A stretch of 64,000 nt of DNA. Source: Thioalkalivibrio sp. XN8. GTDB taxonomy: Bacteria; Pseudomonadota; Gammaproteobacteria; Steroidobacterales; XN24. This document shows positions 38,210 through 57,153 of the stretch, piece by piece. The notes beneath the pieces are model-generated. The model was not told the origin of the DNA, did no database searches, and saw only the letters and a program-made list of their open reading frames with translations. Where the stretch lies: positions 1 to 64,000 of the forward strand of contig NZ_JAALFH010000034.1 in the NCBI RefSeq assembly GCF_011058255.1, written 5' to 3'. Each line of letters opens with the position of its first letter. Positions within the stretch are counted from its first letter, which is position 1. A program made the translations under genes and the position numbers.

Positions 38210-38752
38210 ATGAGGCCACCGACGAAACCGGTCCCGCGGGAGGGACGGGCCAGGACCGGCACGCTGCGCGCGGCGACCGCGGCGGCGCTGGCAGTCTTCG
38301 CTTTCTGGCTGATCGTCTCCGCTTCGCTCGACCCCGCCGACCTCGCGGCCGGCGCGCTGCTCGCCGTCCTCCTGGGCTGGTGGTCGGCGCGCTTTCTCTG
38401 GGCCGGCGCCCCGCCGGTGATTGCGCCGGGCGTGCTGCTCGGGCTGCCCGGCCACCTGGTCCGGCTGGCGGGCGAAGTCGTGGTCGCCGCGCTGCACGTG
38501 GCGCGCCTGGTACTCGATCCCCGCCTGCGGGTGGCGCCGCGCCTGCTGCGCATCCGGACGGGGCTGCGCAGCCCCGCCGCCCGGATCACCTTCGCGCTCT
38601 CGCTGACGCTCACCCCGGGCACCCTGGCGATCGACCTCGAGGACGGCGTGTTCCTCGTGCATTGCCTCGACGAGGCCTCGGCCGAGCGGCTGCTCGACGG
38701 CGCGCTGGAACGGCGCATCGCGCGCGTGTTCGGCGAGGAGGCGGGGCCATGA
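38210..38752 (+). CDS. mrpE: Mrp antiporter subunit E (module 1)
   Basis: 180 residues. After a basic, likely cytoplasmic N-terminus come two or three TM helices, then the MrpE domain with LTLTPGTLAIDLEDGVFLVHCLD, seen here as LTPGTLAID and FLVHCLD, which are diagnostic. MrpE is a small subunit of multi-protein cation/proton antiporters and equals MbhA in membrane hydrogenases. First gene of module 1, overlapping mrpF by four bases (ATGA). A 67-base leader separates it from the predicted FNR-type promoter start. Confidence 0.9.
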   Translation: MRPPTKPVPREGRARTGTLRAATAAALAVFAFWLIVSASLDPADLAAGALLAVLLGWWSARFLWAGAPPVIAPGVLLGLPGHLVRLAGEVVVAALHVARLVLDPRLRVAPRLLRIRTGLRSPAARITFALSLTLTPGTLAIDLEDGVFLVHCLDEASAERLLDGALERRIARVFGEEAGP

Positions 38753-39027
38753 CGGCGTTCTTCTGGGGGCTGGCCACTTTCCTGCTGGTGAACGCTTTCG
38801 CCTGCCTGTGGCGGGCCTGGCGGGGGCCGACGGTGGTCGACCGCATCCTCGCCACCAACGTGGTGAACAGCAAGGCGCTGGTCGTGCTGGTGCTGCTCGG
38901 ACTGGCCTTCGAGCGCAGCCTGCTGCTCGACGTGGCGCTGGTCTACGGCCTGCTGAACTTCGGCATCACCATCGCCGCGAGCCGCTTCCTCGAGACCGGC
39001 CGCATCCGCGGGAGCTGGCAGTCATGA
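38749..39027 (+). CDS. mrpF: Mrp antiporter subunit F (module 1)
   Basis: 92 residues with three TM helices. WRAWRGPTVVDRILATNVV is the conserved MrpF/MbhB segment (GPTxxDRxxAxN). ATG 38749 overlaps the mrpE stop, and the gene overlaps mrpG by four bases. Small membrane subunit next to MrpG in the complex. Confidence 0.9.
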   Translation: MTAFFWGLATFLLVNAFACLWRAWRGPTVVDRILATNVVNSKALVVLVLLGLAFERSLLLDVALVYGLLNFGITIAASRFLETGRIRGSWQS

Positions 39028-39344
39028 CGGCCGTGTGGCACGCGATCGTGGTGGCGCTGGCGCTGTTCGGCGCGGCCTTCTTCCTCGCCGGCACGCTCGG
39101 GCTGTTGCGCCTGCCGGACTTTTATACCCGTGCCCACGCCGTCTCCAAGTGCGACACCGTCGGCGCCGGCTCGATCCTGCTGGCGTTGGCGCTGTATGTC
39201 GCGCCGCAGCCGGAGGCGCTGAAGATCCTGTTGCTGCTGTTGCTCGTGCTGCTCTCCAGCCCGACCTCCTGCCACGCGCTGGCGCACGCCGCGCATCACA
39301 CCGGGCTCGAGCCGCGCGAGCCGCGGGCAGGGGAGCCGTCATGA
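39024..39344 (+). CDS. mrpG: Mrp antiporter subunit G (module 1)
   Basis: 106 residues, three TM helices. Conserved MrpG features: GTLGLLRLPDFYTRAHA and KCDTVGAG, then SSPTSCHALAHAAH. In the family these residues line the interface with MrpF and the MrpA-like part. Translation is coupled on both sides through ATGA overlaps. Confidence 0.92.
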   Translation: MTAVWHAIVVALALFGAAFFLAGTLGLLRLPDFYTRAHAVSKCDTVGAGSILLALALYVAPQPEALKILLLLLLVLLSSPTSCHALAHAAHHTGLEPREPRAGEPS

Positions 39345-39583
39345 GCGCGCTGTTCGACCTGGTGATGCTGGCGCTGCTGCTCGGCATGGCGCTGGCGGTG
39401 GCGCGCACCCGCGACCTGCTCGCGGCGGCGATCCTGTTCTCGGGCTACAGCCTGGTGATGTGCCTGCTGTGGCTACACCGGGGCGCGCCCGACGTGGCGA
39501 TGACCGAGGCGGCCGTGGGCGCCGGCGTCACCACCATCCTGTTCCTGCTCGCCATCGGCCGCACGGGGAGGCGGGAGCGATGA
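39341..39583 (+). CDS. MbhD-like (DUF4040) subunit, module 1
   Basis: 80 residues, two or three TM helices. GYSLVMCLLWLHRGAPDVAMTEA contains the conserved GAPDVAMTEAAVGAG element found in the C-terminal part of MrpA and in stand-alone MbhD (DUF4040). Its presence as a separate gene between G and B is the Mbh-type gene order rather than the classic Mrp one, in which it is fused to MrpA. The conserved Glu in MTEA lies on the proposed lateral ion path. Confidence 0.85.
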   Translation: MSALFDLVMLALLLGMALAVARTRDLLAAAILFSGYSLVMCLLWLHRGAPDVAMTEAAVGAGVTTILFLLAIGRTGRRER

Positions 39584-40299
39584 GGCGCCTGTTGACCGCA
39601 CTGGCGCTGGCGATCGTGGGGGCCGTCATGCTGGCCGGCCTGGCGGGCCTGCCGCGGCCGGGCGATCCCGCGGCGCCCGTGCACACGCACGTGGCGGCCC
39701 ACATCGTGGCTCATGGCGTCGAGGACACCGGTTCCCGCAACCTGGTGACGGCCGTGTTGCTGGCCTACCGGGCCTACGACACCTTCGGCGAGGTGGTGGT
39801 GATCTTCGCTGCGCTGGCCGCCGTCATGGTGGTGCTGGCGCCGGCCGCCGCCCCGCCGCCGGGAAAGACCGCGCCGCCCCCGTCGCCCGCTCCCGCGGTG
39901 GCGCCCAGCCCGGTGGTGGGCTTCGTCATCCGCCTGCTGGCGCCGTTCATCGCGGCCTTTGCGGCGCTGGTCCTCTGGCACGGCGAAGCCCTGCCGGGCG
40001 GCGGCTTCCAGGCCGGCGTCATCCTCGGGGCGTTGCTGGTGCTGTTGAGCGTGGTGATGGGCCGGGGGCTGGAGCAGCCGCTCGTCCCCGCGGCGGCCGC
40101 GCGCTGGCTGCAGGCGGCCGGGCCGCTCGCGTTCGCGGCGGCGATGCTGATCGGCCTCGCCGGCGCCGGGGCCGTGCTCGGGCTGCCGGCCGAGCCGGCC
40201 TGGGGCCGCCATGCCGTGCTGCTGCTGCTGGAGCTGGGCATCGGGCTGGGCGGCGCGGCCATCATCCTCGGTCTCTACCTGCAGATGCGGGGGCACTGA
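39580..40299 (+). CDS. mrpB: MrpB subunit (MbhE-MbhF fusion type), module 1
   Basis: 239 residues. The N-terminal third resembles MbhE (NLVTAVLLAYRAYDTFGEVVVIF). A Pro/Ala-rich linker (residues ~90-105) joins it to the MrpB/MbhF domain, with WHGEALPGGGFQAGVILGA. About seven TM helices in total. MrpB contributes to the ion-translocation path between MrpA- and MrpD-like subunits. Starts in an overlap with the previous stop (ATGA). Confidence 0.88.
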   Translation: MRRLLTALALAIVGAVMLAGLAGLPRPGDPAAPVHTHVAAHIVAHGVEDTGSRNLVTAVLLAYRAYDTFGEVVVIFAALAAVMVVLAPAAAPPPGKTAPPPSPAPAVAPSPVVGFVIRLLAPFIAAFAALVLWHGEALPGGGFQAGVILGALLVLLSVVMGRGLEQPLVPAAAARWLQAAGPLAFAAAMLIGLAGAGAVLGLPAEPAWGRHAVLLLLELGIGLGGAAIILGLYLQMRGH

Positions 40300-40300
40300 C

Positions 40301-40651
40301 ATGGACGGCGGCTGGCAGCATCTCGACTACTTCGCCTTCGTCGCGCTGTTCTGCATCGGCCTCTATGTCGTGCTGGCCAAGTCGAACCTGGTGAAGAAGC
40401 TGCTCGGGCTGAACATCATGGAAACCTCGGTGTTCGCCTTCATCGTGACTTCCGGCATGGTGGACGGCGGTACCGCGCCGGTGGTCGGGCCCGGCATCGA
40501 CGCCCCCTTCGCCAGCCCGCTGCCCCATGCCCTGATCCTCACCGGCATCGTGGTCGCGGTCAGCATCACCGCGCTGGCGCTGGCGCTGATCGTCGAGATC
40601 AAGCGCCAGTGCGGCACCATCGAGGCGGACGAGCTCAAAGGGGCGGAGTGA
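40301..40651 (+). CDS. mrpC: Mrp antiporter subunit C (module 1)
   Basis: 116-residue NuoK-like subunit with three TM helices. Seen: KKLLGLNIMETSVFAFIV and DPLPHALILTGIVVAVSITA-like sequence (SPLPHALILTGIVV). The family is homologous to complex I NuoK. One base separates it from mrpB, and its stop overlaps the mrpD start by one base. Confidence 0.92.
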   Translation: MDGGWQHLDYFAFVALFCIGLYVVLAKSNLVKKLLGLNIMETSVFAFIVTSGMVDGGTAPVVGPGIDAPFASPLPHALILTGIVVAVSITALALALIVEIKRQCGTIEADELKGAE

Positions 40652-42126
40652 TGGAGCACCTGCTGCCCCTGGCGGCCGCGCTGCCCCTGGTCGCGGCGGC
40701 CCTGCTGCCGGCGGTGGCCTGGCGCCGCCCGGATGCGGCCTGGGGCTGGGCGGTGGCAGTGGGCGCCGGCCTGCTCGGGATCGTGGGCCTGCTGCTGCGC
40801 CGGCTGCTGCAGGATGGGCCGTTCTCCTACGCGGTCGGGGGCTGGGCGCCGCCCTGGGGCATCGAGCTGCGCTTCGATGCGCTGAGCGCCTTCAGCCTGG
40901 GCATCGCGCTGGTCGGCGTGGCGGTGCTGGTGTTCAGCGGCCGCTATGCGCAGGCCGCGGTGCCGCCGCAGCGCCGGGCCTGGTACTACAGCCTGTTGCT
41001 GGTGAACCTCGGCGGGCTGGTCGGCTTCGCCTGCGCCGCCGACCTGTTCAACCTGTTCGTCTGCATGGAGCTGGTCTCGGTCTCCAGCTATGCGCTGGTG
41101 GCGGCGGGCGGGGGCCGGATCGCAGCGCTGGCCGCCTTCAAGTACCTCGTCGCAGGCGCGGTGTCGTCGCTGCTGGTGCTGTTCGCCGTCGGCATCCTCC
41201 ATGCCCTGACGGGCAGCCTGAACATGGCCGACGTCGCGCTGCGGCTGGCGGACGTGGAGGCGCGCGGGCCGGTGCTGCTGGCGCTCGGCGCGCTGACGGC
41301 GGGCTTCATGGTCAAGGCGGCGCTGTTCCCGCTGCACCTGTGGCTGCCGGACGCCCACGCCAGCGCGCCCAGCCCGGTCAGCGCCGTGCTCTCCGCGCTG
41401 GTGGTGAAGCTGGGGGTGCTCGGCCTGGCGCGCGTGCTGCCGCTGTTCGCCGGGCTCGACTGGCTGGTGCTGGCGCCGCTGCACGAGGGCCTGGCCTGGC
41501 TGGGCGCCATCGCCATCGTCGCGGGCGCGCTGGCGGCGCTGCTGCAGGAAGACCTGAAGCTGATGCTGGCCTACTCCACGGTTTCCAACATCGGCTACAT
41601 CGTGCTCGGCCTCGGCCTGGCGACGCCGCTGGCGATGACGGGCGGCCTGGTGCACGTGTTCTACCACGCGCTGATCAAGGCCACGCTGTTTCTCGCCGCC
41701 GGCGCCATCATCCACCAGGCCGGCTTCCGCACGCTGCGGGACCTGCGGGGCGTCGGCCGGGCCATGCCGTGGACCGGCGTCGCGCTGTCGCTGGGCGTGC
41801 TGGCCATCGTCGGCCTGCCGCCGACCGCCGGCTTCCTGGGCAAGTGGTACCTCCTGCTGGGCGCGCTCGAGGCGGGCCGGCCCGGCTTCGCCGTGGCGCT
41901 GCTGGCCGGCGCCCTGCTGATCTTCGTCTATTACCTGCGCATCCTGAACGCCTTCTACTTCCGCGCCCCGCTGCGGGAACAGATCCTGGCGGTCCGCGAG
42001 GCGCCGTTGTCCATGCTGCTGCCGGTCATGGCGCTGGCGCTGCTGTGCCTGCTCGGCGGCCTGTTCGGCAGCGGTCCGGTCGCGCTCGCGGCGCTGGCCG
42101 CCGCGCGCCTGGCAGGCGGAGGCTGA
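40651..42126 (+). CDS. mrpD: Mrp antiporter subunit D (module 1)
   Basis: 491-residue antiporter-like subunit with about 14 TM helices (Proton_antipo_M family). All key charged residues are in place: the TM5-type Glu in FVCMELVSVSSYAL, TM7 Lys in GFMVKAALFPLH, TM8 Lys in ALVVKLGVLG and the TM12 Lys in GFLGKWYLLL. It therefore looks capable of proton or cation conduction. It sits at the MrpD/MbhH position, directly after mrpC. Three further antiporter-like genes follow, which is unusual. Confidence 0.93.
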   Translation: MEHLLPLAAALPLVAAALLPAVAWRRPDAAWGWAVAVGAGLLGIVGLLLRRLLQDGPFSYAVGGWAPPWGIELRFDALSAFSLGIALVGVAVLVFSGRYAQAAVPPQRRAWYYSLLLVNLGGLVGFACAADLFNLFVCMELVSVSSYALVAAGGGRIAALAAFKYLVAGAVSSLLVLFAVGILHALTGSLNMADVALRLADVEARGPVLLALGALTAGFMVKAALFPLHLWLPDAHASAPSPVSAVLSALVVKLGVLGLARVLPLFAGLDWLVLAPLHEGLAWLGAIAIVAGALAALLQEDLKLMLAYSTVSNIGYIVLGLGLATPLAMTGGLVHVFYHALIKATLFLAAGAIIHQAGFRTLRDLRGVGRAMPWTGVALSLGVLAIVGLPPTAGFLGKWYLLLGALEAGRPGFAVALLAGALLIFVYYLRILNAFYFRAPLREQILAVREAPLSMLLPVMALALLCLLGGLFGSGPVALAALAAARLAGGG

Positions 42127-42129
42127 GCG

Positions 42130-43617
42130 ATGGAAGTCCTCGACATCCGGGTCGTGCTGGCGCCGGGCATCTCGCTGCTCTGCGCCCTGCTGGTGTTCGT
42201 GCTGGGGCGTCATGACGGCTGGCGCGCCACCTTCACCCTGGGCGCGGCGCTGATCAAGCTGGTCCTCATCCTGACGCTGCTGCCGGGCAGCCTCGAGGGC
42301 GTGGTGTACGTCTACCGCGCCTTCGACTTTCCGCCCGGCATCGGCATCGCCTTCCGGGTGGACGGGCTGGGCATGTTCTTCGCCCTGGTGTCGTCCACGC
42401 TGTGGGTGCTGACGACCATCTACGCCATCGGCTACATGCGCGACCAGCACGACCGCGTGCGCTTCTTCGGCTTCTTCGCGCTGTGCGTGTCGACTACGGT
42501 GGGCATCGCCTTCGCCGCCAACCTGCTCACCCTGCTGCTGTTCTACGAGCTGCTCACTATCTGCACCTACCCGCTGGTGATCCACGACGAGACCCCGGCG
42601 GCGCTGAAGGCCGGGCGCAAGTACCTGGCCTACACGCTGGCCGGCGGCGCCCTGATCCTGCTCGGCACGGTGCTGGTCCAGCACCTCGCCGGCAGCCTGG
42701 CTTTCGGGACCGGCGGGCTGCTCGCCGGCGCCGCGGGCCAGCCGCTGCTGCCGCTGGCCTTCGTGGCGCTGGTCGCCGGCTTCGGCGTCAAGGCCTGCCT
42801 GATGCCGCTGCACGGCTGGCTGCCCACCGCGATGGTGGCGCCCACGCCGGTGAGCGCGCTGCTGCACGCGGTGGCGGTGGTGAAGGCGGGCGTCTTCGGC
42901 CTGCTGCGCGTGATCTACGATGTCTTCGGCGTCGAGCTGCTGGCCGGGCTCGGCTACACCAGCTGGCTGGCGGCGCTGGCCGCCTTCACCATCCTGGCCG
43001 CCTCCTTCGCCGCGCTCGCCCAGGTGAACTTCAAGCGGCGGCTCGCCTGGTCGACCATCAGCCAGCTGTCCTACATCGTGCTCGGCGCCGCGCTGCTGAC
43101 GCCCTTCGCCGCCCTGGCGGCGATCGTGCACATCGCCAACCAGGCCTTCGCCAAGATCACCATGTTTTTCGTCGCCGGCGCCGTCGAGCGCACCACCGGC
43201 CGCACCGAGTTGCGCGAACTCACCGGGCTGGGCCACGTCATGCCCTGGACCATGACCGCCTTCACCATCGCCGCGCTGAGTTTCGTCGGCGTGCCGCTGT
43301 TCGCCGGCTTCGTCACCAAGTGGTACCTGTCGCTCGGCGGGCTGCAGGCGGGCGCCTGGTGGGTGGTGCTGCTGATGCTCGCCAGCGCGCTGCTGAATGC
43401 GGCCTACTGGCTGCCGGTGGTCTACCGGGCCTGGTTCCAGCCGCCGCGCGGGCTGGAGCCGGGCGTCCGGGAGGCGCCCCTGCTGTTGCTCGCGCCGGCG
43501 CTGGTCAGCGCCGCCTACGTGCTGCTGCTCGGCGTCAGCACGCGCGTGCCCGGGATGCCGTTCTCGCTGGCCGAGGCCGCCGTCCGCTTCGTCTCCGGCA
43601 TCGGGGCCGCGCCATGA
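42130..43617 (+). CDS. Second antiporter-like (NuoL/M-type) subunit, module 1
   Basis: 495 residues, about 14 TM helices, Proton_antipo_M family. Key residues are intact: Glu in LLLFYELLTICTYPLV, Lys in GFGVKACLMPLHGW, Lys in HAVAVVKAGVFG and Lys in GFVTKWYLSL. GMFFALVSSTLWVLTTIYAIGYM and the HxxPxAxKAGRKY segment resemble MrpA/NuoL-type subunits. It could take the place of MrpA, which is otherwise absent. Three bases after mrpD. Its colinear counterpart in module 2 is at 52398-53891. Confidence 0.9.
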   Translation: MEVLDIRVVLAPGISLLCALLVFVLGRHDGWRATFTLGAALIKLVLILTLLPGSLEGVVYVYRAFDFPPGIGIAFRVDGLGMFFALVSSTLWVLTTIYAIGYMRDQHDRVRFFGFFALCVSTTVGIAFAANLLTLLLFYELLTICTYPLVIHDETPAALKAGRKYLAYTLAGGALILLGTVLVQHLAGSLAFGTGGLLAGAAGQPLLPLAFVALVAGFGVKACLMPLHGWLPTAMVAPTPVSALLHAVAVVKAGVFGLLRVIYDVFGVELLAGLGYTSWLAALAAFTILAASFAALAQVNFKRRLAWSTISQLSYIVLGAALLTPFAALAAIVHIANQAFAKITMFFVAGAVERTTGRTELRELTGLGHVMPWTMTAFTIAALSFVGVPLFAGFVTKWYLSLGGLQAGAWWVVLLMLASALLNAAYWLPVVYRAWFQPPRGLEPGVREAPLLLLAPALVSAAYVLLLGVSTRVPGMPFSLAEAAVRFVSGIGAAP

Positions 43618-45101
43618 CCGGCCGCGCCGACCTGCTGCCGCTGCTGGCCGTGGCCCTGCCGCTGCTCGGCGCAGTCCTGGCCTGGCCGGCCCGGCGGCTC
43701 GGCCGCAACGGACGCTTCGTGTGCCTGCTCACGCTTGCCGGGCTGGCGACGGCCGTCGCGCTGGCGCTGGTGGCCGTCGTGCTCGCCGGCGCAGAGCCCG
43801 GCCTGGCCGTGCTGCGCTTTACTCCGCAGGCGACGCTGTACCTCAGGGTGGACGCCCTCGGCGCGCTGTACGGCGCGACCGTCTCGCTGCTGTTTTTCCT
43901 GGCGCTCTGCTATTCGTGGGGCTACCTCCGGGGCGATCCGCACGAAAGCCGCTACCTCGCGTTCTTCATGGCCGCCCACGGCTGGCTGCTGGGCGTGGCC
44001 TACGCGGGGAATCTCCTCACGCTGCTGGTCTTCTACGAGCTGTTCTCGATCCTCGCCTATCCGCTGGTGGTGCACGAGGAGACGCCTGCCGCGCTGCGCG
44101 CCGGCACCAAGTACATCGTCTACATCCTGCTCGGCGGCACGCTGGTCCTGCTGGGCGTGATCCTGTGCTTCTACCTGGCCGGCGACCGGCCGTTCGCGCC
44201 GGGCGGGATGCTGGCGCCGGACGCCGATCCCGCGCTGCTGCGGGCGGCATTCTGGTGCCTGGTGGCGGGCTTCGGCGTGAAGGCGGCGGTGATGCCGCTG
44301 CACGGCTGGGTGCCCGACGTGCACCCGGCGGCACCGGCGCCGTTCTCCGCGCTCCTGTCGGGCGTGATGGTGGCGGCCGGCGGCTTTGCCATCATGCGGG
44401 TCGTGTTCGAGGTCTTCGGCGCCGGGCTGGCGGCGACGCTGGGCGTGCTGCCGTGGCTGCAGGGGCTGGCCGCCGTCACCGCGCTGCTGGCGGCGGTCCT
44501 CGCGGTGGCGGAGGACGAGCTGAAGCGGCGGCTGGCCTGGTCGACCATCAGCCAGATGGCCTACGTGCTGCTCGCCGTCGCGCTGCTGGCGCCGGAGGCC
44601 GTCGCCGGCGCCATGGCGCACATCACGCATCACGCCTTCCTCAAGGGCGGGCTGTTCTTCTGCGCCGGGCTCCTGGCCACCGGCGCCGGCGTCCGCCATG
44701 TCTCCGCCCTGCGTGGGATGGGCCGGCGCATGCCGCTGACCATGGCTGCTTTCACCATCGCCGCGCTGGGCATCGTCGGGGTGCCGCCGCTCTCCGGCTT
44801 TATCGGCAAGTGGGTGATGGGCGTCGGCCTGGCCGAGGCGGGCCATCCGCTGTACCTGCTGGTGCTGCTGGGCGGCGCACTGCTGGCGGCGATGTACCTG
44901 CTGCCGCCGGTCTGGCTGGCGTACTTCAGCCCGGCGCCGGACGCGCCGCCGCCGCGCGGGCGCGAGGGCCCGCCGGCCATGCTCCTCGCGCTCGCGGCGG
45001 CCACCGCGCTCAGCATCCTGCTCGGCCTGGCCGCGGCCTGGCCGGGGATGCCGCTGTCGCTGGCGCGACGGGCCGTGGCCGCCTTCTTCGGGGGTGGCTG
45101 A
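43614..45101 (+). CDS. Third antiporter-like subunit, module 1 (TM8 Lys missing)
   Basis: 495 residues, Proton_antipo_M family. Glu in LVFYELFSILAYPLV, the TM7 Lys in GFGVKAAVMPLHGW and a TM12 Lys in GFIGKWVMGV are present. The TM8 Lys, found as VVVKAG in its neighbours, is replaced: the segment reads SGVMVAAGGFAIMR. Such a change would be expected to impair the proton path. Overlaps the preceding gene by four bases (ATGA). Its positional counterpart in module 2 (53888-55435) is even more degenerate. Confidence 0.9.
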   Translation: MTGRADLLPLLAVALPLLGAVLAWPARRLGRNGRFVCLLTLAGLATAVALALVAVVLAGAEPGLAVLRFTPQATLYLRVDALGALYGATVSLLFFLALCYSWGYLRGDPHESRYLAFFMAAHGWLLGVAYAGNLLTLLVFYELFSILAYPLVVHEETPAALRAGTKYIVYILLGGTLVLLGVILCFYLAGDRPFAPGGMLAPDADPALLRAAFWCLVAGFGVKAAVMPLHGWVPDVHPAAPAPFSALLSGVMVAAGGFAIMRVVFEVFGAGLAATLGVLPWLQGLAAVTALLAAVLAVAEDELKRRLAWSTISQMAYVLLAVALLAPEAVAGAMAHITHHAFLKGGLFFCAGLLATGAGVRHVSALRGMGRRMPLTMAAFTIAALGIVGVPPLSGFIGKWVMGVGLAEAGHPLYLLVLLGGALLAAMYLLPPVWLAYFSPAPDAPPPRGREGPPAMLLALAAATALSILLGLAAAWPGMPLSLARRAVAAFFGGG

Positions 45102-45103
45102 GC

Positions 45104-47680: not shown

Positions 47681-47795
47681 GCCGGTTTCGGAAAATCCCA
47701 ACGCGGGCGGCCGGCGCGCAGGTCATCATGGATACCCAAATGCCTGCGGGGCGCCAAGCCCGTGGGCCGGCCGATGCCAGGGAGGGGGCACCGCC

Positions 47796-48533: not shown

Positions 48534-48560
48534 ACGGAGCAACCCGCCACAGGAGCCGCG

Positions 48561-49661: not shown

Positions 49662-49957
49662 ACCCCGGGCTGCTGTTCGACGCCGTGCTGGTCACGGTGC
49701 TGCTGTGGGTCGCCTGGGCGGCGCTCGCCAGCCGCGACCTGTTCCGCGGCATCGTGTTGTTCATCGCCTTCGGGCTGGTGTTGTCCATGGGCTGGGTGCG
49801 GCTGGGGGCGCCGGACGTCGCGCTCGCGGAGGCGGCGATCGGGGCCGGCATCGCCGGGGCGCTGCTGCTGGCAACCTGGGCGCGCCTGCCGGGCAAGACC
49901 GAGGAACGGCCGGGGGACGACCTCGAGGGTCAGGAGCGGGATCATGAGCAGCGCTAG
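49658..49957 (+). CDS. MbhD-like (DUF4040) subunit, module 2
   Basis: 99 residues, about three TM helices. The conserved element reads RLGAPDVALAEAAIGAG, matching GAPDVAMTEAAVGAG of module 1, with the functional Glu retained. A ~25-residue hydrophilic, acidic C-terminal tail (KTEERPGDDLEGQERDHEQR) is absent from the module 1 copy. Overlaps the next gene by 14 bases. Confidence 0.85.
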   Translation: MNPGLLFDAVLVTVLLWVAWAALASRDLFRGIVLFIAFGLVLSMGWVRLGAPDVALAEAAIGAGIAGALLLATWARLPGKTEERPGDDLEGQERDHEQR

Positions 49958-50630
49958 CCGGCCGCCCGGCGAGCCGGGGCTGCTGCTGCGCGCGGTGCTC
50001 GCGCTGCTGCTGCTGGCCGCGGCAGCCGGGGTGGCGCTTGCCCTGGTGGCGGGACAGGTTGCGCCCGGCCTCAGCGGCGCGGTGGCCGCAGCCCTGCCGG
50101 ACAGCGGCGCCAGCAATCCTGTGACTGCGGTACTGCTGAACTTCCGCGGCTACGACACGCTGCTGGAGATGGCGGTCCTCACCGCGGCCGTGGTCGGCGT
50201 GTGGTCACTCGGCCCGGCGCCACGCATTCGCGAGACCGAGCCCAGCCCGGTGCTGCTGGGCATGAACAGCGTGCTGATTCCCCTGGCGCCGCTCATCTGC
50301 GCCTACCTGCTGTGGGCCGGCAGCAGCCGCCCGGGCGGGGCATTCCAGGCCGGCGCCGTGCTGGCGGCCGCCGGCGTGCTGTTCATCATCTCCGGCCGCC
50401 GGCCGGCCGTGCACCTGCCGGCTGCGCCGATGAGCTGGGGCATCGTGGCGGGCCTGGGCGTGTTCCTGGCGGTCGCCCTCGCGGTGATGCCCGGCGGGCG
50501 GGAGCTGCTGGAGTATCCCCGGGGTCTCGCCGGCGCGCTGATCCTGCTCGTCGAGACGGCCGCGACCGTGAGCATCGCGCTGATCCTGGCGGGCCTGTTC
50601 ATCGGCGGCCGGCCCGAGGACGAGCCGTGA
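49944..50630 (+). CDS. mrpB: MrpB subunit (MbhE-MbhF fusion type), module 2
   Basis: 228 residues, about seven TM helices. The MbhE-like part contains NPVTAVLLNFRGYDTLLEMAVL, quoted as NPVTAVLLNFRGYDT; the MrpB-like part contains LWAGSSRPGGAFQAGAVLAA. Same two-domain plan as the module 1 protein, with a shorter linker. The GTG of mrpC overlaps its stop (GTGA). Confidence 0.87.
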   Translation: MSSASRPPGEPGLLLRAVLALLLLAAAAGVALALVAGQVAPGLSGAVAAALPDSGASNPVTAVLLNFRGYDTLLEMAVLTAAVVGVWSLGPAPRIRETEPSPVLLGMNSVLIPLAPLICAYLLWAGSSRPGGAFQAGAVLAAAGVLFIISGRRPAVHLPAAPMSWGIVAGLGVFLAVALAVMPGGRELLEYPRGLAGALILLVETAATVSIALILAGLFIGGRPEDEP

Positions 50631-50956
50631 GCAGCGCGCTGCTCTACGCCGGCGCCGGTATGGGCCTGCTCCTGGTAGGCGTCTGGGCGCTGGTGCTGCG
50701 CGCGCACCTGCTGCGCAAGGTGCTCGCCATCAATGTCATGGGCAGCGGCGCCTTCCTGCTGCTGGTCGGCGCCGGCGCCATGGGCGGCGGTCCGGTCGAC
50801 CCGGTGCCGCAAGCCATGGTCATCACCGGCATCGTGGTCTCGATCTCCGCGACGGCGCTGGCGCTGGCGCTGGTGCTCCGGATCGCGTACGCCACGGGCA
50901 AGGCCGCGCTGCCGGAAGACCGCGAGCGCGACCTCATGGACAGGGAAGGGAGATAG
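50627..50956 (+). CDS. mrpC: Mrp antiporter subunit C (module 2)
   Basis: 109-residue NuoK-like subunit, three TM helices. LLRKVLAINVMGSGAFLLLV and DPVPQAMVITGIVVSISATA (given as DPVPQAMVITGIV) are the family signatures. The start is GTG 50627, overlapping the mrpB stop; no ATG is available at this position. Five bases before mrpD. Confidence 0.9.
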   Translation: MSSALLYAGAGMGLLLVGVWALVLRAHLLRKVLAINVMGSGAFLLLVGAGAMGGGPVDPVPQAMVITGIVVSISATALALALVLRIAYATGKAALPEDRERDLMDREGR

Positions 50957-50961
50957 CCGGC

Positions 50962-52401
50962 ATGAGCACGTGGCTGGCGGCGCTCCCCTGGATGGTCCTG
51001 GCGATTGCCATCCCCTTGCTGGGAGCTCTGGCCGCTTTCGTCCAGCCGCGCCGGGCCCAGGTGATCGGGCTGAGCTTCAGTTTCCTCACCGCCGGCGCGG
51101 CCGTGGGCGTGGTGCTCGATTTCATCACCCTGGGCCCGCAGCAGCACGCGGTGGGCGGCTGGGGCGCGCCCCTCGGGATCGACCTGGTCGCCGACGGCCT
51201 GAGCATCCTGATGCTGGGGATGTCGGCGGTGGTGGGCGTCGCCGTCAGCATCTACGCGCGGGCCTATTTCGTGCCCTACCCGGACAAGGCGCCGCGCTTC
51301 TGGCCGCTGTGGCTGTTTCTCTGGGCGGCCCTGAACGCCCTGTTCCAGTCGGCCGACGTGTTCAACCTCTACGTCACGCTCGAGCTCATGGGGCTGTCGG
51401 CCGTCGCGCTGGTGGCGCTGACCGGTTCCGGCCCGGCGCTGTGGGGCGCCATGCGCTACCTGCTGGTCAGCCTGCTGGGCTCGCTGGCCTACCTGGTCGG
51501 CGTGGCGCTCCTGTATCACGCCTACGGCACGGTGGATCTCACGCTGCTCGCCGAGCGCGCCGACGGGGGCCTGCAGCTGGCGGTGCCGCTGGGCGCCATG
51601 ATCGCGGGGCTGCTGCTCAAGACCGGCCTGTTCCCCTTCCACGTCTGGCTGCCGCCGGCACACGGCAGCGCCCGCGCGCCGGTCAGCGCGCTGCTGTCGG
51701 GGCTGGTGGTCAAGGCTTCGTTCTACCTGGTGCTGCGGCTGTGGTTCACCTTCGTGCCCGAGGGCGAGGGGCTGCCCCTGCTGCTGGGCTGCCTCGGTGC
51801 CGCGGCGATCTTCTGGGGCTCGATCCAGGCCCTGCGCCAGAAGCGCCTGAAGCTGCTCGTCGCCTATTCGACGGTAGCCCAGCTGGGTTACCTGTTCATC
51901 GCCTTCCCGCTCGCCGGCCTGGAGCCGCAGATGGCCTGGAGCGGCTCGATCTACCTGGCGCTGTCGCACGCCTTCGCCAAGGGCGCGATGTTCCTGGCCG
52001 CCGGCGCCATCATGACCCAGGGCGGCCATGACGAGATCGACGAGCTCGACCTGGTGGTGGACCGCATGCCGCTGACCCTGGCGGCCTTCGCCCTGGCGGG
52101 CATCAGTCTCGCCGGCCTGCCGCCGAGCGGCGGCTTCGTCGGCAAGTGGCTCCTGCTCGAGTCCGCCATGGCGCAGGGCAAGGGCATCTGGGCCGCGATC
52201 ATCATCGTCGGCGGCCTGCTCACCGCCACCTACGTGTTCCGCGTGCTGGGCTTCGCCTTCACCCGCTCCGAGCATCACCACGAGCGCCATGAAGTGCCGG
52301 CTGCCATGGAGTGGACAGCGCTGTTGCTGGCCCTGGGCGCAGTGCTGCTCGGCTTCGTCGCGCCCTGGGCGCTGCCCCTGCTCGACGGGGTGCTGCCATG
52401 A
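50962..52401 (+). CDS. mrpD: Mrp antiporter subunit D (module 2)
   Basis: 479 residues, about 14 TM helices. Charged residues for ion conduction are intact: Glu in YVTLELMGLSAVAL, Lys in GLLLKTGLFPFHVWLP, Lys in SGLVVKASFYLV and Lys in GFVGKWLLLES. A His-rich C-terminal loop (SEHHHERHE) may be a proton antenna or a metal site; it is not seen in the module 1 MrpD. ATG 50962 follows GGGAGA. Confidence 0.92.
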   Translation: MSTWLAALPWMVLAIAIPLLGALAAFVQPRRAQVIGLSFSFLTAGAAVGVVLDFITLGPQQHAVGGWGAPLGIDLVADGLSILMLGMSAVVGVAVSIYARAYFVPYPDKAPRFWPLWLFLWAALNALFQSADVFNLYVTLELMGLSAVALVALTGSGPALWGAMRYLLVSLLGSLAYLVGVALLYHAYGTVDLTLLAERADGGLQLAVPLGAMIAGLLLKTGLFPFHVWLPPAHGSARAPVSALLSGLVVKASFYLVLRLWFTFVPEGEGLPLLLGCLGAAAIFWGSIQALRQKRLKLLVAYSTVAQLGYLFIAFPLAGLEPQMAWSGSIYLALSHAFAKGAMFLAAGAIMTQGGHDEIDELDLVVDRMPLTLAAFALAGISLAGLPPSGGFVGKWLLLESAMAQGKGIWAAIIIVGGLLTATYVFRVLGFAFTRSEHHHERHEVPAAMEWTALLLALGAVLLGFVAPWALPLLDGVLP

Positions 52402-53891
52402 CCACCAACGCCTGGCTGCCGCTGCTGGTGCTGGCCTCCTCGCTGATCCCGGGGCTGATCATCTTCACCCTGCCGGAGAAGGCCGTCGCCTGGCGCATCA
52501 CGCTCAACCTCGGCGGGGCCCTGCTGAAGATCCTGCTGCTGGTGCTGATGATGATCGGCGTGTTCCACGGCGTGAACTACGAGTTTCGCGTGCCGCTGGT
52601 CCCGGGCATCGATTTCGTGCTGCACGCCGACGCGCTGTCGCTGCTGTTCGTCAACCTGTCGGCGGTGCTGTGGCTCGCCACCACCGTCTACGCCATCGGC
52701 TACCTCGAGGACTCCCCCAACCGGAGCCGCTTCTTCGGCTATTTCAGCCTCTGCGTGACCACGACCGTTGGCCTGGCGATGGCCGGGAACCTGCTCACCT
52801 TCCTGGTCTTCTACGAGGCGCTGACGCTCTCCACCTACCCCCTGGTCGTGCATCGCGGCACCGAGGTGGCGCGCAAGGCCGGCCGCACCTACCTGGCCTA
52901 TACGTTGCTCGGCGGTGTGCTGCTGCTGGCCGGCACCATCTGGCTGCATGCCCTCACCGGTACCCTGGAGTTCGTCGACCGGGGCTTCGTCCGCGGTCTC
53001 GACCTCGACCCCGCCACGCTGCGCATGGTCTTCACGCTGCTGATCCTCGGCGTGGGCGTCAAGGCCGCGCTGGTGCCGCTGCACGCCTGGCTGCCGCAGG
53101 CCATGGTCGCGCCGGCGCCGGTGAGCGCGCTGCTGCATGCCGTCGCGGTCGTGAAGGCCGGCGCCTTCGGGGTGGTGCGCATCATCTACGACGTGTTCGG
53201 CATCGAGTTCGCCGCCGAACTGGGGGTGACCCTGCCGCTGGCGGTGCTGGCCGCCGTCACCATCATCTACGGCTCGGTGCGGGCGCTGTTCCAGGAAGAC
53301 CTGAAGCGGCGGCTGGCTTTCTCCACCGTCAGCCAGGTGTCCTACATCACCCTGGGCGTCGCCATTGCCGGCCCGATCGCCACCATCGGCGGGCTCGCGC
53401 ACCTGGTCCACCAGGGCTTCATGAAGATCACCCTGTTCTTCTGCGCCGGCAACTACGCGGAAACGCTGGGCGTGCACAAGGTCAGCGAGCTGCGCGGCAT
53501 CGGCCGGCGCATGCCCTGGACCACGGCGGCCTTCACGGTCGCGGCCTTCGGCATGATCGGCGTGCCGCCGGTGGTCGGCTTCGTCAGCAAGTGGTACCTC
53601 GGGCTCGGCGCACTCGAGGTCGGCCAGGACTGGGTGGTCTACGTCCTGGCCGGCAGCAGCCTGCTGAACGCGGCCTATTTCCTGCCGCTGGTGCGGGCCG
53701 CCTGGTTCGAGCCGCCCCCTGACGAATGGCCGCATGAGCGGAACTTCGGCCGCAAGGAAACGGCCTGGATGCTGCTGCTGCCGCCGCTGTTCACGGCGCT
53801 GGCGGCGCTGGCCTGGGGCCTGTTCGCCTCCATGCCCGGCACGCCGCTCGACTGGGTCCAGTTCATCGCGGCCCGGAAGTACGGCTCATGA
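52398..53891 (+). CDS. Second antiporter-like (NuoL/M-type) subunit, module 2
   Basis: 497 residues. Clear counterpart of 42130-43617: both have TVYAIGY/TIYAIGY, FYEALTLSTYPLV, GVKAALVPLHAWLPQAMVAP and HAVAVVKAGAFG. All key Glu and Lys residues are kept, including Lys in GFVSKWYLGL. Likely an active ion-conducting subunit. Four-base overlaps join it to both neighbours. An in-frame upstream ATG (52311) would overlap mrpD by 91 bases and is rejected. Confidence 0.9.
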   Translation: MTTNAWLPLLVLASSLIPGLIIFTLPEKAVAWRITLNLGGALLKILLLVLMMIGVFHGVNYEFRVPLVPGIDFVLHADALSLLFVNLSAVLWLATTVYAIGYLEDSPNRSRFFGYFSLCVTTTVGLAMAGNLLTFLVFYEALTLSTYPLVVHRGTEVARKAGRTYLAYTLLGGVLLLAGTIWLHALTGTLEFVDRGFVRGLDLDPATLRMVFTLLILGVGVKAALVPLHAWLPQAMVAPAPVSALLHAVAVVKAGAFGVVRIIYDVFGIEFAAELGVTLPLAVLAAVTIIYGSVRALFQEDLKRRLAFSTVSQVSYITLGVAIAGPIATIGGLAHLVHQGFMKITLFFCAGNYAETLGVHKVSELRGIGRRMPWTTAAFTVAAFGMIGVPPVVGFVSKWYLGLGALEVGQDWVVYVLAGSSLLNAAYFLPLVRAAWFEPPPDEWPHERNFGRKETAWMLLLPPLFTALAALAWGLFASMPGTPLDWVQFIAARKYGS

Positions 53892-55435
53892 ACCTCCTGC
53901 TCGCCCTGCCGCTGCTGCCGCTGGCCGTGCTGCTCTGGCTGGCGCTGTCACGCCGCCGGGAGGCGCTGGAGACGGGCTGGCTGGTGGCCCTGGTGGCGTC
54001 TCTCCCGCTGGCCGTCGCGGTGCTGATGGCGCCCCAGGAGATGGCGCTGCCGGACCTGCTGGTGCAGGGCTCGGCCGCGCTCGTGCTGGACGGCACGGCC
54101 CGGGCCGGGCTGCTGCTGTTCGGCGGCGGGTGGTTCGTCGCCGGCCTGTTGATGACTCACGGCGGCGAGCGCAGCCCGGCGGTGATGGCCCTGCTCGTCA
54201 CCCTGTCCGGCGCGCTCACCGTCGCCCTGGGGCAGGGGGGGCCGTTGGTCTATGCCGGCTTGCTCGCTCTCGGTTACGGGCTGTACGGGGTCGTGGCCAG
54301 CGAGCGCCATGACGGCTGGCAACGGCCGGGCGCCGTACTCATCGTGTTCCTGGTGGTCAGCGACCTGCTGGTGTTCGAGGTCCTGCTCGATCGCACCGCG
54401 CACCCGAGCGGTGCCGGGCTCGCCCTGCTGGCAGTGATCGCCCTGGCGCTGCGCGGCGGCGTGCCGCCTGCCCATGGGTGGCTGCCCCAGCTGCTGCAGG
54501 TCGGTAGTGCGCCGGCGGCGGTGCTGCTGGCCATGGTCCCGGCGGGCGCCGCCTGGCTGGGCGGCGTCAAGATCATGCCCTCGGCCGGGGCCGGCGTAGC
54601 CATGTTCTGCCTGTTGGTCGGGCTCATCGGCGCGGCCTGGGCGGCGGTGGCCGGCGTGGTGCAACGGGAAGAGCGGGCGACCCTGGGGTATGCGGTGGCC
54701 GCAAGCTCGGCGTTGCTGCTGGTCGCACTGCCGGCCGGAGTGGCGGGCATGCTGCCGCTGCCCTGGCTGGTGCTGGCCGTGCTGGCCGCCTGCGGCGCCC
54801 AGCCGCTGCTCAGGTTCCTGGCGCCGGGCTGGCTGCACGACCTGGCGGTGGCCCTGCTGCTGCTCGCCCACGGCCTCGCGGCCGGGCAGGTCGCTGTTCA
54901 CGCCGGCACCGCCTTGCCGCCGGGCATCGCCCTGCTGCCCGGGCTCGCGGCCGTGCTCGCCACGTTCGTGCTCACCCTGGCAGTGCGCCGTGTCGGGGGC
55001 CCGGCAGTCTCACCGGAACGGTCGACCGGCCTGGTGTTCACGCCGGTCGCGCTGGCGGTCGCCGGCGTCGGCGCGGCGTGGTGGCTGGCGCCGCCAGGCT
55101 TTGCCTCGGCCTGGTCCGCGCCCGTCGCCATCACGCTGGGCCTGGTCGCGCATCGTCTGACCCGGGAGCGCCTGTCGGCACCCTTCGGCGCCGGGGACGT
55201 GTTCGAGCCGGTCGAGAGCCTCACCGGGCGGCTGGTCCGGGCTGTGGGTGCGTTGTGTCAGCAGCAGGTCGCCCGCATTCGCGACGCCTGCATGGGGGCC
55301 TTGCTCGGGTTGTGGGACGGGCCGGCTTGGGCGCGCCGGATGCAGCAGCTGGACATCCGCCTGCGCTCCTGGCCGGCGACCAGCCTGATGATGCTGGCAG
55401 TCGCCCTGGGCGCAGCCTACCTGCTGGCCCGATGA
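53888..55435 (+). CDS. Degenerate antiporter-like membrane subunit, module 2
   Basis: 515 residues, about 13 TM helices, in the third antiporter-like position. Only faint Proton_antipo_M traces remain: ALRGGVPPAHGWLPQLLQVGSAPA aligns with the TM7-TM8 loop, but the TM7 Lys is Arg and the TM8 Lys is gone. No Glu occupies the TM5 site and no TM12 Lys is seen. The frame is intact and translation-coupled on both sides, so it is probably a kept structural subunit, not a pseudogene. The tail has an amphipathic helix and a terminal TM (WPATSLMMLAVALGAAYLL). Confidence 0.8.
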   Translation: MNLLLALPLLPLAVLLWLALSRRREALETGWLVALVASLPLAVAVLMAPQEMALPDLLVQGSAALVLDGTARAGLLLFGGGWFVAGLLMTHGGERSPAVMALLVTLSGALTVALGQGGPLVYAGLLALGYGLYGVVASERHDGWQRPGAVLIVFLVVSDLLVFEVLLDRTAHPSGAGLALLAVIALALRGGVPPAHGWLPQLLQVGSAPAAVLLAMVPAGAAWLGGVKIMPSAGAGVAMFCLLVGLIGAAWAAVAGVVQREERATLGYAVAASSALLLVALPAGVAGMLPLPWLVLAVLAACGAQPLLRFLAPGWLHDLAVALLLLAHGLAAGQVAVHAGTALPPGIALLPGLAAVLATFVLTLAVRRVGGPAVSPERSTGLVFTPVALAVAGVGAAWWLAPPGFASAWSAPVAITLGLVAHRLTRERLSAPFGAGDVFEPVESLTGRLVRAVGALCQQQVARIRDACMGALLGLWDGPAWARRMQQLDIRLRSWPATSLMMLAVALGAAYLLAR

Positions 55436-57153
55436 ACGGCGCCGGGGCCATGACGGCCGTCGTGGCGCCGCTGCTGGTCGCCGCCGCGCTCGCCGTCCCG
55501 GCGGCCCGACCGGCAGCGCGCCGGCTGGCGCCCTGGGCGCCGCTGCCCGCCGTGTTGCTGCCGCTGTTTGCCGCCGGGACGGTCGACGTGCCCTGGCTGT
55601 TGCTCGGGGCGCGGCTGGGGCTGGACGAAATCGGCCGCGCGCTGCTGCCGCCTACCGCGTTCCTGTGGCTGTGCGCCGGCCTGGCGGTGCCGCATTTCGT
55701 GGGCCCCGAGCGGCGCGACGGCTTCCTTGTATGCTTCCTGGTCGCGATGAGCGGCAACTTCCTCCTGCTGGCGGCGCTGGAGGCGGTTACTTTCTATCTC
55801 GGCTTCGCCCTGATGAGCTTCGCCTCCTACGGGCTCGTGGTGCAGGCCGGCACTGCGCGCGCGCGCCATGCCGGGCGCTACTACATCGTCATGGTGGTGC
55901 TGGGGGAAGTCTGCGTCATCACCGGGCTGATGCTGCTGGCCAGCCGCAGCGCCATCGATTTCGCTGCGATGCGCGCCAGCTTCGCCGGTGGGGCACCGGG
56001 CGCCAATAATCTCGTGCTGGGCCTCCTCCTGGCCGGCTTCGGGATCAAGGCCGGCGTTGCCGGGCTGCATTTCTGGCTGCCGCTGGCCCACCCGGTCGCG
56101 CCGGCGCCGGCCAGTGCCGTGCTGTCCGGGGCCATGATCAAGGCCGGGCTGGTGGCGTGGCTGCGATTCTTCCCCGTCGGGGAGCTGGCGCTGCCGTCCT
56201 GGGGGTTGGCGCTGGCCGCGCTGGGTCTGGGCACAGCCTGTTACGGGGTGCTCGCGGGACTGCCGCAGCGCGAGCCCAAGACCGTCCTGGCGTATTCCAG
56301 CGTCAGCCAGATGGGTCTGATGACCCTGGGCGTCGGCATCGGGCTCGCCTGGCCCGAGCGCTGGCCGCTGGTACAGGCCGCCCTGCTGGTCTACATCGTG
56401 CACCACGGACTGCTGAAGGGCAGCCTGTTCCTCGGCGCCGGCATCGCCCACGAGCCCCTGTCCCCTGGCGCGGCGCGGCTCCTCGCGGCGGGTTTCGTGC
56501 TCGCCGCGGTCTCGATGGCGGGCGGGCCGTGGAGCGGCGGGCTGGTGGCCAAGCTGGGGCTGAAGCATGGCCTGCCCGCGACCGGCGCCTGGCACGACGT
56601 GGTGCCGCCGCTGCTCGTCCTGAGCTCGCTGCTCACGGCGCTGCTGTTGCTGCGGTTCCTCTGGGTGGCGTGGCCGCGCACCGCCGGCGGCCGCGATTCG
56701 CCGCCGGCGCGACTGCTGGCCGGCTGGGCCGTGCTGTTGGCGACGGCCCTGGTCCTGCCATGGTGGCTGGCCGCGGCCGGAACGCGCGCCGGCGCAGTGG
56801 GGCCGTGGGCCGCGCTCGAGGCCGCGTGGCCGCTGCTGGCCGCGCTACTGCTGGCGCTCGGGGTGCTGCGGCTGCCGACGCTGCGGCGCGTCGCCAGCCG
56901 GATCGAGGTGCCGCCCGGCGATCTCGGCATAGCGCTGGAACAAGGGCTGCGGGCCCTCGGCCGGCGCCTGGATCGCGGCCTCGACCGTGTCCGCCAGCAC
57001 GGCAGCGTCTACCGCCAGGCCGGCAGGCTGGCGGCGCTGGTCCCGGCAGCGGCGACTGTCCTCGGACGCGTGGAGGGGCGCCTGAGCGCCTGGTCGATGA
57101 CGGGCCTGCTGCTGCTCGTCGTGGCCATCAGCGCTGCCTGGCTGCTGGGCTGA
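55432..57153 (+). CDS. Long antiporter-like subunit, module 2 (TM5 Glu missing)
   Basis: 573 residues, counterpart of 45104-47680: GFGIKAGVAGLHFWLPLAHP and APASAVLSGAMIKAG are nearly the same in both, with the TM7 and TM8 lysines kept, and Lys in GGLVAKLGLKHG. The TM5 glutamate is replaced: the segment reads FYLGFALMSFASYGLV where the partner has CFETLG. The C-terminal part is a ~70-residue Arg-rich amphipathic region and a last TM (WSMTGLLLLVVAISAAWLL), much shorter than in module 1. Last gene of the Mrp-like region. Confidence 0.88.
   Translation: MNGAGAMTAVVAPLLVAAALAVPAARPAARRLAPWAPLPAVLLPLFAAGTVDVPWLLLGARLGLDEIGRALLPPTAFLWLCAGLAVPHFVGPERRDGFLVCFLVAMSGNFLLLAALEAVTFYLGFALMSFASYGLVVQAGTARARHAGRYYIVMVVLGEVCVITGLMLLASRSAIDFAAMRASFAGGAPGANNLVLGLLLAGFGIKAGVAGLHFWLPLAHPVAPAPASAVLSGAMIKAGLVAWLRFFPVGELALPSWGLALAALGLGTACYGVLAGLPQREPKTVLAYSSVSQMGLMTLGVGIGLAWPERWPLVQAALLVYIVHHGLLKGSLFLGAGIAHEPLSPGAARLLAAGFVLAAVSMAGGPWSGGLVAKLGLKHGLPATGAWHDVVPPLLVLSSLLTALLLLRFLWVAWPRTAGGRDSPPARLLAGWAVLLATALVLPWWLAAAGTRAGAVGPWAALEAAWPLLAALLLALGVLRLPTLRRVASRIEVPPGDLGIALEQGLRALGRRLDRGLDRVRQHGSVYRQAGRLAALVPAAATVLGRVEGRLSAWSMTGLLLLVVAISAAWLLG

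Follow-up and report, generated by a model that had tools for sequence, protein, structure and literature searches.

Do two adjacent Mrp/Mbh-type gene modules, each with four antiporter-like subunits, encode one machine, a duplicated one, part of a redox complex, or two independent transporters? The question is raised by the window analyzed here, a stretch of 64,000 nucleotides from Thioalkalivibrio sp. XN8 (genome G000). The reading that we prefer, with a probability of roughly 0.6, is that of two separate, stand-alone group-3-like Mrp/Mbh-type cation/proton antiporters that lie side by side and have an altered cation path.

Both modules lie on the forward strand, between exact coordinates 38210 (start of E1) and 57153 (end of Ld2), and Pfam and NCBIfam matches give them the same order, with E, F, G, MbhD, an MbhE/MrpB fusion, and C followed by four antiporter-like genes, La, Lb, Lc, and Ld. 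Genes within the modules overlap or abut (spacing -14 to +14 bp), and a scan for promoters and terminators gave no signal above chance. This is the order given in the preliminary description, to which two details are added: the gene called B is a fusion of MbhE (PF20501) with MnhB (PF04039), and a methyltransferase gene separates the modules. The features are as follows.

38210..38752, +, E1, MrpE/MbhA-like (PF01899, 102.8 bits)
38749..39027, +, F1, MrpF/MbhB-like, Asn at the Asp35 position (NCBIfam MrpF models below cut-offs; aligned with five solved chains, all Asp)
39024..39344, +, G1, MrpG/MbhC-like (TIGR01300 over cut-off)
39341..39583, +, MbhD1, Glu56 aligned with Glu69 of MbhD 6cfw_D (PF13244, alignment)
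39580..40299, +, EB1, MbhE-MrpB fusion, exit motif RAYDTFGE retained (PF20501 and PF04039)
40301..40651, +, C1, MrpC/MbhG-like (NCBIfam MrpC models)
40651..42126, +, La1, antiporter-like, proton-path residues complete (PF00361, NCBIfam, residue alignment, tree)
42130..43617, +, Lb1, antiporter-like, residues complete (nearest NCBIfam PRK07234/PRK08375; residue alignment, tree)
43614..45101, +, Lc1, extra antiporter-like subunit, Ala at TMH8 Lys (tree: sister to the Lb class, on an old branch)
45104..47680, +, Ld1, HyfB-like last subunit (best NCBIfam match PRK06521; tree)
47796..48533, +, SAM-dependent methyltransferase, 27 bp upstream of E2 (PF13649)
48561..49100, +, E2, MrpE-like (NCBIfam)
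49097..49372, +, F2, MrpF-like, Gln at the Asp35 position (NCBIfam, alignment)
49359..49661, +, G2, MrpG-like (TIGR01300 over cut-off)
49658..49957, +, MbhD2 (PF13244)
49944..50630, +, EB2, MbhE-MrpB fusion, RGYDTLLE retained (Pfam, alignment)
50627..50956, +, C2, MrpC-like (PF00420)
50962..52401, +, La2, antiporter-like, residues complete (PF00361, NCBIfam, residue alignment)
52398..53891, +, Lb2, antiporter-like, residues complete (PF00361, NCBIfam, residue alignment)
53888..55435, +, Lc2, degenerate antiporter-like subunit (own profile, residue alignment, predicted fold, dN/dS)
55450..57153, +, Ld2, last subunit, Ld class (NCBIfam, residue alignment, tree)

The three-subunit module types of proteobacteria, defined in the present analysis as types A, B, and C, have the same small-subunit block, La, Lb, and last subunit as the window, usually with a single last subunit; a third module of the same genome, on contig C41, also has three. 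Three antiporter-like subunits are the usual state (99/116 modules), which removes the possibility that such subunits never accompany E-F-G-B-C-D elsewhere, while four are an exception that has arisen more than once. Locus L237, which satisfies the four-subunit rule, was discounted: its extra piece, some 3 kb further along, is the first part of a reading frame at the end of the contig. Modules were found with Lb as the marker, in place of Ld1, whose 18 examined best class-wide matches sit in hydrogenase-4/HyfB-like clusters and not in Mrp modules.

No catalytic gene was seen within the modules or their flanks, no NiFe or NuoD-like catalytic subunit adjoins them, and the Nuo redox arm is absent from their cluster. 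A genome search with PF00346 as its only catalytic-family model returned one protein, which belongs to complex I on contig C33, a contig other than that of the modules. The modules might still serve as membrane arm to a redox complex, or to one energised in another way, with catalytic subunits encoded elsewhere, as would suit their Mbh-like order, the split of MbhD and MbhE as in MBH and MBS, the best NCBIfam match of both Ld1 and Ld2 (hydrogenase-4 subunit B), and the clade that these two form with HyfB and the type A last subunits (SH-aLRT 96); the single PF00346 protein and the lack of a catalytic gene at the modules nevertheless make this improbable. Together with the family matches and the tree, the search bears out the initial view of two complete MrpA-less modules with four antiporter-like subunits each.

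Among known systems, the nearest in gene content is Mrp group 3, outlined in PMC8415708 as clusters in which mrpA is absent and only mrpD is present, sometimes in several copies. Clusters without mrpA but with several mrpD genes are thus already known, if little studied, and the statement that the modules match no described Mrp group was too strong. E, F, G, B, C, and D are present in both modules, none of the seven window subunits included in the large-subunit tree (Lc2 was left out) groups with MrpA-N/NuoL, and the C-terminal domain of MrpA is split. The stand-alone mrpEFGBB'CD cluster of P. furiosus, a group 3 member as presented in PMC8415708, likewise has the order E-F-G-B-B'-C-D, fused MrpB-type domains, and neither mrpA nor a catalytic module, but it has one antiporter-like subunit, compared to four here, where the last one is HyfB-like. 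MrpF Asp35, judged against the five solved relatives, is lost here. The arms of P. furiosus MBH (6cfw) and MBS (6u8y) are the best-scoring solved relatives of F1, MbhD1, EB1, and C1, and MbsE, called a fusion in PMC8415708, also matches along MbhE and MrpB; the window modules, however, have more antiporter-like subunits, no catalytic subunits, and no counterpart of Asp35 of MbhB/MbsB. Solved Mrp complexes of groups 1 and 2 (6z16, 7qru, 7d3u) have homologous subunits and share the MrpD-type Glu/Lys path with La and Lb, whereas the window modules lack MrpA with its NuoL-like N-terminal domain, have the C-terminal domain of MrpA divided between MbhD and MbhE, and show replacement of MrpF Asp35 and of the MrpC His. 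Four or more antiporter-like subunits per complex are reported for the Nitrospira 2M complex I and for Complex_I_3 of Manganitrophaceae in PMC9040806, but these are forms of complex I with redox arms, which the window modules do not have. Among the literature matches listed, mostly outside subscription journals, no paper on such a gene set and no transport data for members of these module types were found.

The two modules almost certainly do not descend from a local duplication. The module tree places module 2 within a widespread B/C clade (43 modules) and module 1 outside it, as a separate deep lineage, and a joint clade of both was rejected (delta lnL 337, p-AU 9e-56; 24 modules, LG+G4). 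The extra subunits are not orthologous either, Lc1 being sister to the Lb class and Lc2 falling, on long branches, in the Ld clade. A tandem duplication of one module, proposed earlier from the colinear order and favored also by the matching position of the one extra subunit in each module, is therefore hardly credible. One tree grouped module 1 and type A as sisters (support 81-82), but another did not resolve the point, and no such relationship is proposed.

Adjacency in G000 and G002, together with identical gene order, could also point to a single heteromeric super-complex that combines the two modules, but relatives show that each occurs alone, and this arrangement is very unlikely; an obligatory heteromer is likewise not supported. 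The congener G001 (99% complete) retains the flanking genes of the window locus and has AbgT, the methyltransferase, module 2, a cytochrome, and a P-type ATPase in this order, with no module 1; complex I, module 2, and a type A module account for its nine PF00361 proteins, three apiece. G004, from a related genus, has module 1 but neither module 2 nor a match to Lc2, and its ten PF00361 proteins divide into four from module 1 and three each from complex I and type A. G001 and G002 both have the methyltransferase gene at the corresponding position. In the stretches examined outside the genus of the window, such modules had no second complete one beside them.

The cation path of these separable, putative antiporters is altered. 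MrpF Asp35, located on the Na+ path, is termed "invariably conserved" in PMC7419157, in which its change to Leu inactivated the Mrp of A. flavithermus, and it is Asp in 5/5 matched solved MrpF-type chains. This position is occupied by Asn, Gln, Leu, or Val in 124/124 modules (Asn in F1, Gln in F2), with natural Leu in 19 of the 118 modules outside the family of the window. MrpC of both modules lacks the cation-coordinating His/Asp found in Mrp and MBH. With both sites altered, cation transport is not assured, and the choice of ion or the affinity for it is probably unlike that of canonical Na+/H+ Mrp. The exit acids of MbhE are retained in 120/120 rows and MbhD Glu69 in 120/122, the two exceptions being MrpA-type rows from neighboring clusters in L209 and L239.

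The loss of Asp35 in every module and the replacement of the MrpC ligands would also be consistent with cargo other than metal cations, such as protons alone or a flux linked to inorganic carbon. NuoL-like proteins serve in the DAB inorganic-carbon systems. Such cargo seems unlikely, if still worth weighing, since the acids of MbhD and MbhE are retained, loci of the B/C clade have ion-homeostasis neighbors, and DabA (PF10070) has no match in G000, G001, or G004; G002 has one DabA, elsewhere in its genome.

Not every antiporter-like subunit keeps all the proton-path residues. La and Lb of both modules have the MrpD-type GluTMH5 and LysTMH7/8/12, and the TMH5 Glu/TMH7 Lys pair is present in 259/259 La and Lb rows outside the family of the window. 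Lc1 has Ala in place of the TMH8 Lys, while Ld2 has Ala at the TMH5 Glu and retains the lysines of TMH7/8/12. PF00361 matches seven of the eight large proteins, the exception being Lc2, which has no Pfam or NCBIfam match at 1e-3 and has lost the TMH5 Glu and the TMH7, TMH8, and TMH12 Lys. Lc2 is a remote, divergent member of the family: its own profile matches it, its orthologue in G002 passes the PF00361 cut-off (23.5 bits), and its predicted fold is best matched by NuoL (E 4e-7; medium-confidence model, rmsd 16 Å). The dN/dS of Lc2 is about 0.29. With the complete residue set confined to La2 and Lb2 in module 2, the idea of a large ion pump is weakened; most last subunits of the surveyed modules also lack the TMH5 Glu or the TMH7 Lys, and a larger number of subunits thus does not necessarily imply stronger pumping.

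The last subunits differ in their C-terminal parts. Ld2 ends with a 75-residue stretch and one predicted TM helix, whereas in Ld1 the last two predicted TM helices are about 295 residues apart (329 in G004; 138 in G002, for which one more helix is predicted). The tail of Ld1 (551-858) is mostly of low confidence in the AlphaFold model, and no fold is claimed for it. Lateral-helix length does not rise with subunit number, the median gaps before the last TM helix being 71 and 74 in the three-subunit types B and C and 75 in four-subunit modules; long gaps are found only in Ld1 and in the second Ld of L107/L209 (125).

In the antiporter reading, the block E-F-G-MbhD-MbhE/B-C would be the cation half and the antiporter-like row the proton half, with La placed beside C, then Lb and the two distal subunits, the last of which would carry the lateral-helix-like tail. 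Protons passing through La and Lb would drive the cation in the opposite direction by the Mrp coupling mechanism. The distal subunits of module 2 would mainly cap, tune, or scaffold, whereas those of module 1 may still conduct. In this reading the stacking of the subunits, the antiport, and the identity of the ion are inferred from what was computed, namely gene content, residue states, phylogeny, and separability.

Gene neighbors, counted over distinct loci and limited to the four clusters with Pfam-confirmed representatives (shadow reading frames polluted the clustering), differ between the lineages. In type C, type B, and unassigned loci, respectively, UspA was found near 21/41, 16/64, and 3/7, a CPA2 antiporter near 7/41, 2/64, and 2/7, MscS near 6/41, 2/64, and 0/7, and a cation P-type ATPase near 13/41, 9/64, and 1/7; none of the four occurs in 18 control Hyf loci. 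Loci of the clade holding module 2 are rich in ion and osmotic-stress genes. Type A loci, perhaps the nearest relatives of module 1, have UspA, MscS, and P-type ATPase in 0/19 and CPA2 in 1/19, and this lack of ion-stress neighbors counts against the antiporter reading.

Tentatively, and at a little less than even odds, types A, B, and C and the window modules may together be a class of Mrp-like exchangers that is widespread and distinct in function. Each would keep two proton subunits intact and use the third, or the third together with the fourth, as a distal cap that mostly does not conduct; the cation path would have been rebuilt in the absence of MrpF Asp35, making the ion or the coupling unlike that of Na+/H+ Mrp. 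There is as yet no settled account of how Mrp, MBH, and complex I couple additional antiporter-like subunits to the transport of ions. The modules are natural mutants in this respect, with subunits lacking the TMH5 Glu, the TMH7 Lys, or all key residues beside intact ones, and in their MrpF a residue regarded as essential for Na+ transport is variable, the natural states including the very change to Leu that inactivated a studied Mrp. They make it directly testable whether each antiporter-like subunit pumps and whether Asp35 is required.

On the forward strand of the window, positions 38210–57153 hold two colinear modules (contig C63 of the 3.11-Mb genome, assembled in 67 contigs). Gene calls and profiles assign to each of them E, F, G, MbhD, an MbhE–MrpB fusion, and C, followed by four antiporter-like genes (La, Lb, Lc, and Ld, with a suffix for the module), so that this part of the preliminary description is real. 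The region is arranged as follows:

38210–47680, + strand, module 1 (E1 to Ld1)
47796–48533, methyltransferase gene
48561–57153, + strand, module 2 (E2 to Ld2)
57234–57659, small multihaem c7-like cytochrome gene

Within the modules, genes overlap or lie no more than 14 bp apart; the methyltransferase gene is separated by 115 bp from Ld1 and by 27 bp from E2. In each of the three genus members it lies next to the 5′ end of module 2. The cytochrome gene lies directly 3′ of module 2 and is followed by a heavy-metal P-type ATPase on the opposite strand; both also stand beside module 2 in the congeners G001 and G002. Thirteen proteins of the genome match PF00361, comprising three of complex I (contig C33), three of a further module (contig C41), and seven in the window. 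The genome encodes one PF00346 protein, and no DabA was found in it.

The eighth subunit, Lc2, has no Pfam or NCBIfam match at 1e-3. It is a remote member of the PF00361-type family, as indicated by the score with its own profile (46 bits), the PF00361 match of its G002 orthologue (23.5 bits), and its AlphaFold model (pLDDT 74), which is matched best in the PDB by NuoL (E 4e-7; TM-score 0.55, normalised to the query length; rmsd 16 Å). Its dN/dS versus G001 of about 0.29 (Nei–Gojobori) shows that Lc2 is subject to purifying constraint; the values are 0.12 for La2, 0.11 for Lb2, and 0.40 for Ld2.

The two modules are separable. G001 (99% complete) keeps the order AbgT (95% identity), methyltransferase, module 2, small cytochrome, and P-type ATPase, with ~0.9 kb of other sequence between AbgT and methyltransferase where module 1 would be expected (L045:14570–15440), and all nine of its PF00361 proteins belong to complex I, a type A module, and module 2. 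In turn, G004, from another genus of the family (93% complete), carries module 1, with Lc1 69% identical, and has no match to Lc2.

The preliminary description had proposed an old duplication, which the module tree (six concatenated subunits, 62 modules) contradicts. A single branch (SH-aLRT 100) splits 43 modules of types B and C, including module 2, from type A and module 1; module 2 lies in an 18-module set within the B/C clade (support 100), and module 1 groups separately with the G002 and G004 copies (support 100). Forcing both window modules into one clade costs 337 log units, with p-AU 9e-56 (LG+G4 on a subset of 24 of the 62 modules). Modules 1 and 2 thus have two origins. FastTree places module 1 as sister to type A in the La and Lb subtrees (support 81–82, root-dependent), a relation not resolved in the better-model tree. 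Since the G002 module 1 joins the G004 copy rather than the window copy (support 98), exchange of modules within the family is likely. The extra subunits differ between the modules as well: in the better-model subunit tree, which covers the other seven window subunits and leaves out Lc2, Lc1 branches as the sister of the Lb class (support 99), and in the FastTree analysis Lc2 clusters, less surely in view of long branches, with the Ld class. The better-model tree also unites Ld1 and Ld2 with HyfB and with the last subunits of type A (support 96), and no window subunit in it groups with MrpA-N/NuoL.

A class-wide sample of 369 genomes contains 90 with a relative of Lb1 (E ≤ 1e-75), and public records add Neptunomonas, Shewanella, Thiocapsa, Thiocystis, Alkalimonas, Serpentinimonas, Nitrosomonas, Stutzerimonas, and Desulfopila, among others. 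Profiles built from the window were used to annotate 62 genome stretches and 80 public-record loci, the latter being the best 80 of 361 relatives; genomes near that of the window may be absent from the public-record set. The commonest order is E-F-G-MbhD-(MbhE/B)-C-La-Lb-last, with three antiporter-like subunits. Type A (19 loci) comprises hand-sorted, C41-like modules; types B (64 loci) and C (41 loci) are divided by whether the first subunit after Lb scores above or below 230 bits with a profile built in this analysis, and seven loci were left unassigned. The preliminary description named as a refutation that the extra subunits never co-occur with E-F-G-B-C-D elsewhere; they do. Among 137 distinct modules detected by Lb, 21 were too short to score; of the 116 counted, 99 carry one subunit after Lb, 12 carry two or more, and 5 have none recognised. 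Six of the 12 belong to the family of the window (two each in the window and G002, one each in G001 and G004), and in L209, L121, L211, L219, and L238 the extra subunit is a second Ld. L237 was discounted as a four-subunit module, its extra piece being the start of a reading frame at the contig end about 3 kb away. L221, one of the five modules with no recognised subunit after Lb, carries a natural Lb–Ld fusion in a single 1104-residue reading frame (L221:9917–13228), which suggests that Lb and Ld adjoin in the complex. On the contig shared by L107 (14444–19890) and L209, a four-subunit module is immediately followed by a canonical Mrp cluster that includes MrpA; this cluster serves as an internal control and gives a second example of unlike Mrp clusters side by side. 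In L229 (a Syntrophaceae contig), the last-subunit reading frame begins before C and La, and the order may be rearranged; in L200, a complete E-F-G block is preceded by fragments of further E and F genes, possibly left over from a second module.

UspA accompanies 21/41 type C and 16/64 type B loci, a cation P-type ATPase 13/41 and 9/64, a CPA2 antiporter 7/41 and 2/64, and MscS 6/41 and 2/64. Apart from one CPA2, none of these occurs at the 19 type A loci, and none at 18 Hyf loci of the same class.

Columns for the proton-path residues (TMH5 Glu and TMH7, TMH8, and TMH12 Lys) were defined on Lb2 and extended to the other fetched modules, counting distinct loci and excluding eight rows from neighbouring complex I or true Mrp clusters. 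La and Lb retain Glu5 and Lys7 in 259/259 cases. Type A last subunits keep Glu5 (19/19), with Asn replacing Lys7 in 14/19; those of type B keep Lys7 (69/69) and never Glu5 (0/69; Ala 41, Ser 16, Thr 10, Val 2). In type C, whose definition by low profile score builds in some residue decay, Glu5 is found in 0/38, Lys8 in one, and Lys12 in two. In the window, La1, La2, Lb1, Lb2, and Ld1 have the full set; Lys8 is missing from Lc1 and Glu5 from Ld2, and Lc2 retains no residue of the four. Judging by these residue states, Lc2 and Ld2, at the third and fourth places in module 2, probably do not conduct in the way MrpD does, whereas in module 1 three or four antiporter-like subunits may be functional. 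The G004 Ld1 (L145:11598–13907) lacks ~120 residues in frame in the TMH3–6 region, including TMH5, through a deletion or an assembly error.

On the cation path, residue 35 is Asp in five solved MrpF, MbhB, and MbsB chains. PMC7419157 calls MrpF Asp35 "invariably conserved", reports no growth at high NaCl for Asp35Leu, and recounts a mild effect of Asn or Glu in B. subtilis. None of 124 modules has Asp here; Asp occurs only once at these loci, in the true Mrp cluster next to the L209 module. By distinct loci, the residue is Asn in type A (16/16), Gln (33/36) or Leu (3/36) in type C, Gln (43/59), Leu (14/59), or Val (2/59) in type B, and Gln (5) or Leu (2) in the seven unassigned loci; in the family of the window, three module 1 copies have Asn and three module 2 copies Gln. 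At MrpC positions 37/41 (MBH numbering), where MBH has Asp/His, module 1 has Glu/Phe and module 2 has Gly/Phe; MBS shares the Glu37 of module 1. The equivalent of MbhD Glu69 is retained in 120/122 rows (the other two are of MrpA type and come from L209 and L239), and the exit Asp/Glu of MbhE is present in 120/120. By these residues, the cation path is altered at the cytoplasmic entry and the coupling cavity, not erased.

No literature on these modules was found among the matches listed. The suggestion that they match no described Mrp group is too strong, since group 3, as described in PMC8415708, takes in MrpA-less clusters with one or several mrpD, as in both window modules. Other sources describe duplicated mrpD in cyanobacteria and Microbacterium (PMC5703873), one to four antiporter-like subunits per complex (PMC7419157), and complementation of E. 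coli by Ehrlichia genes whose annotations name subunits D, E, F, G, B, C, and DUF4040 (PMC8395091); the four- and five-subunit examples in PMC9040806 are forms of complex I. Both window modules are real and represent a variant of Mrp group 3; their wide distribution is ordinary, and they are unusual in their fourth subunits, the pairing of unlike modules, and the altered cation path.
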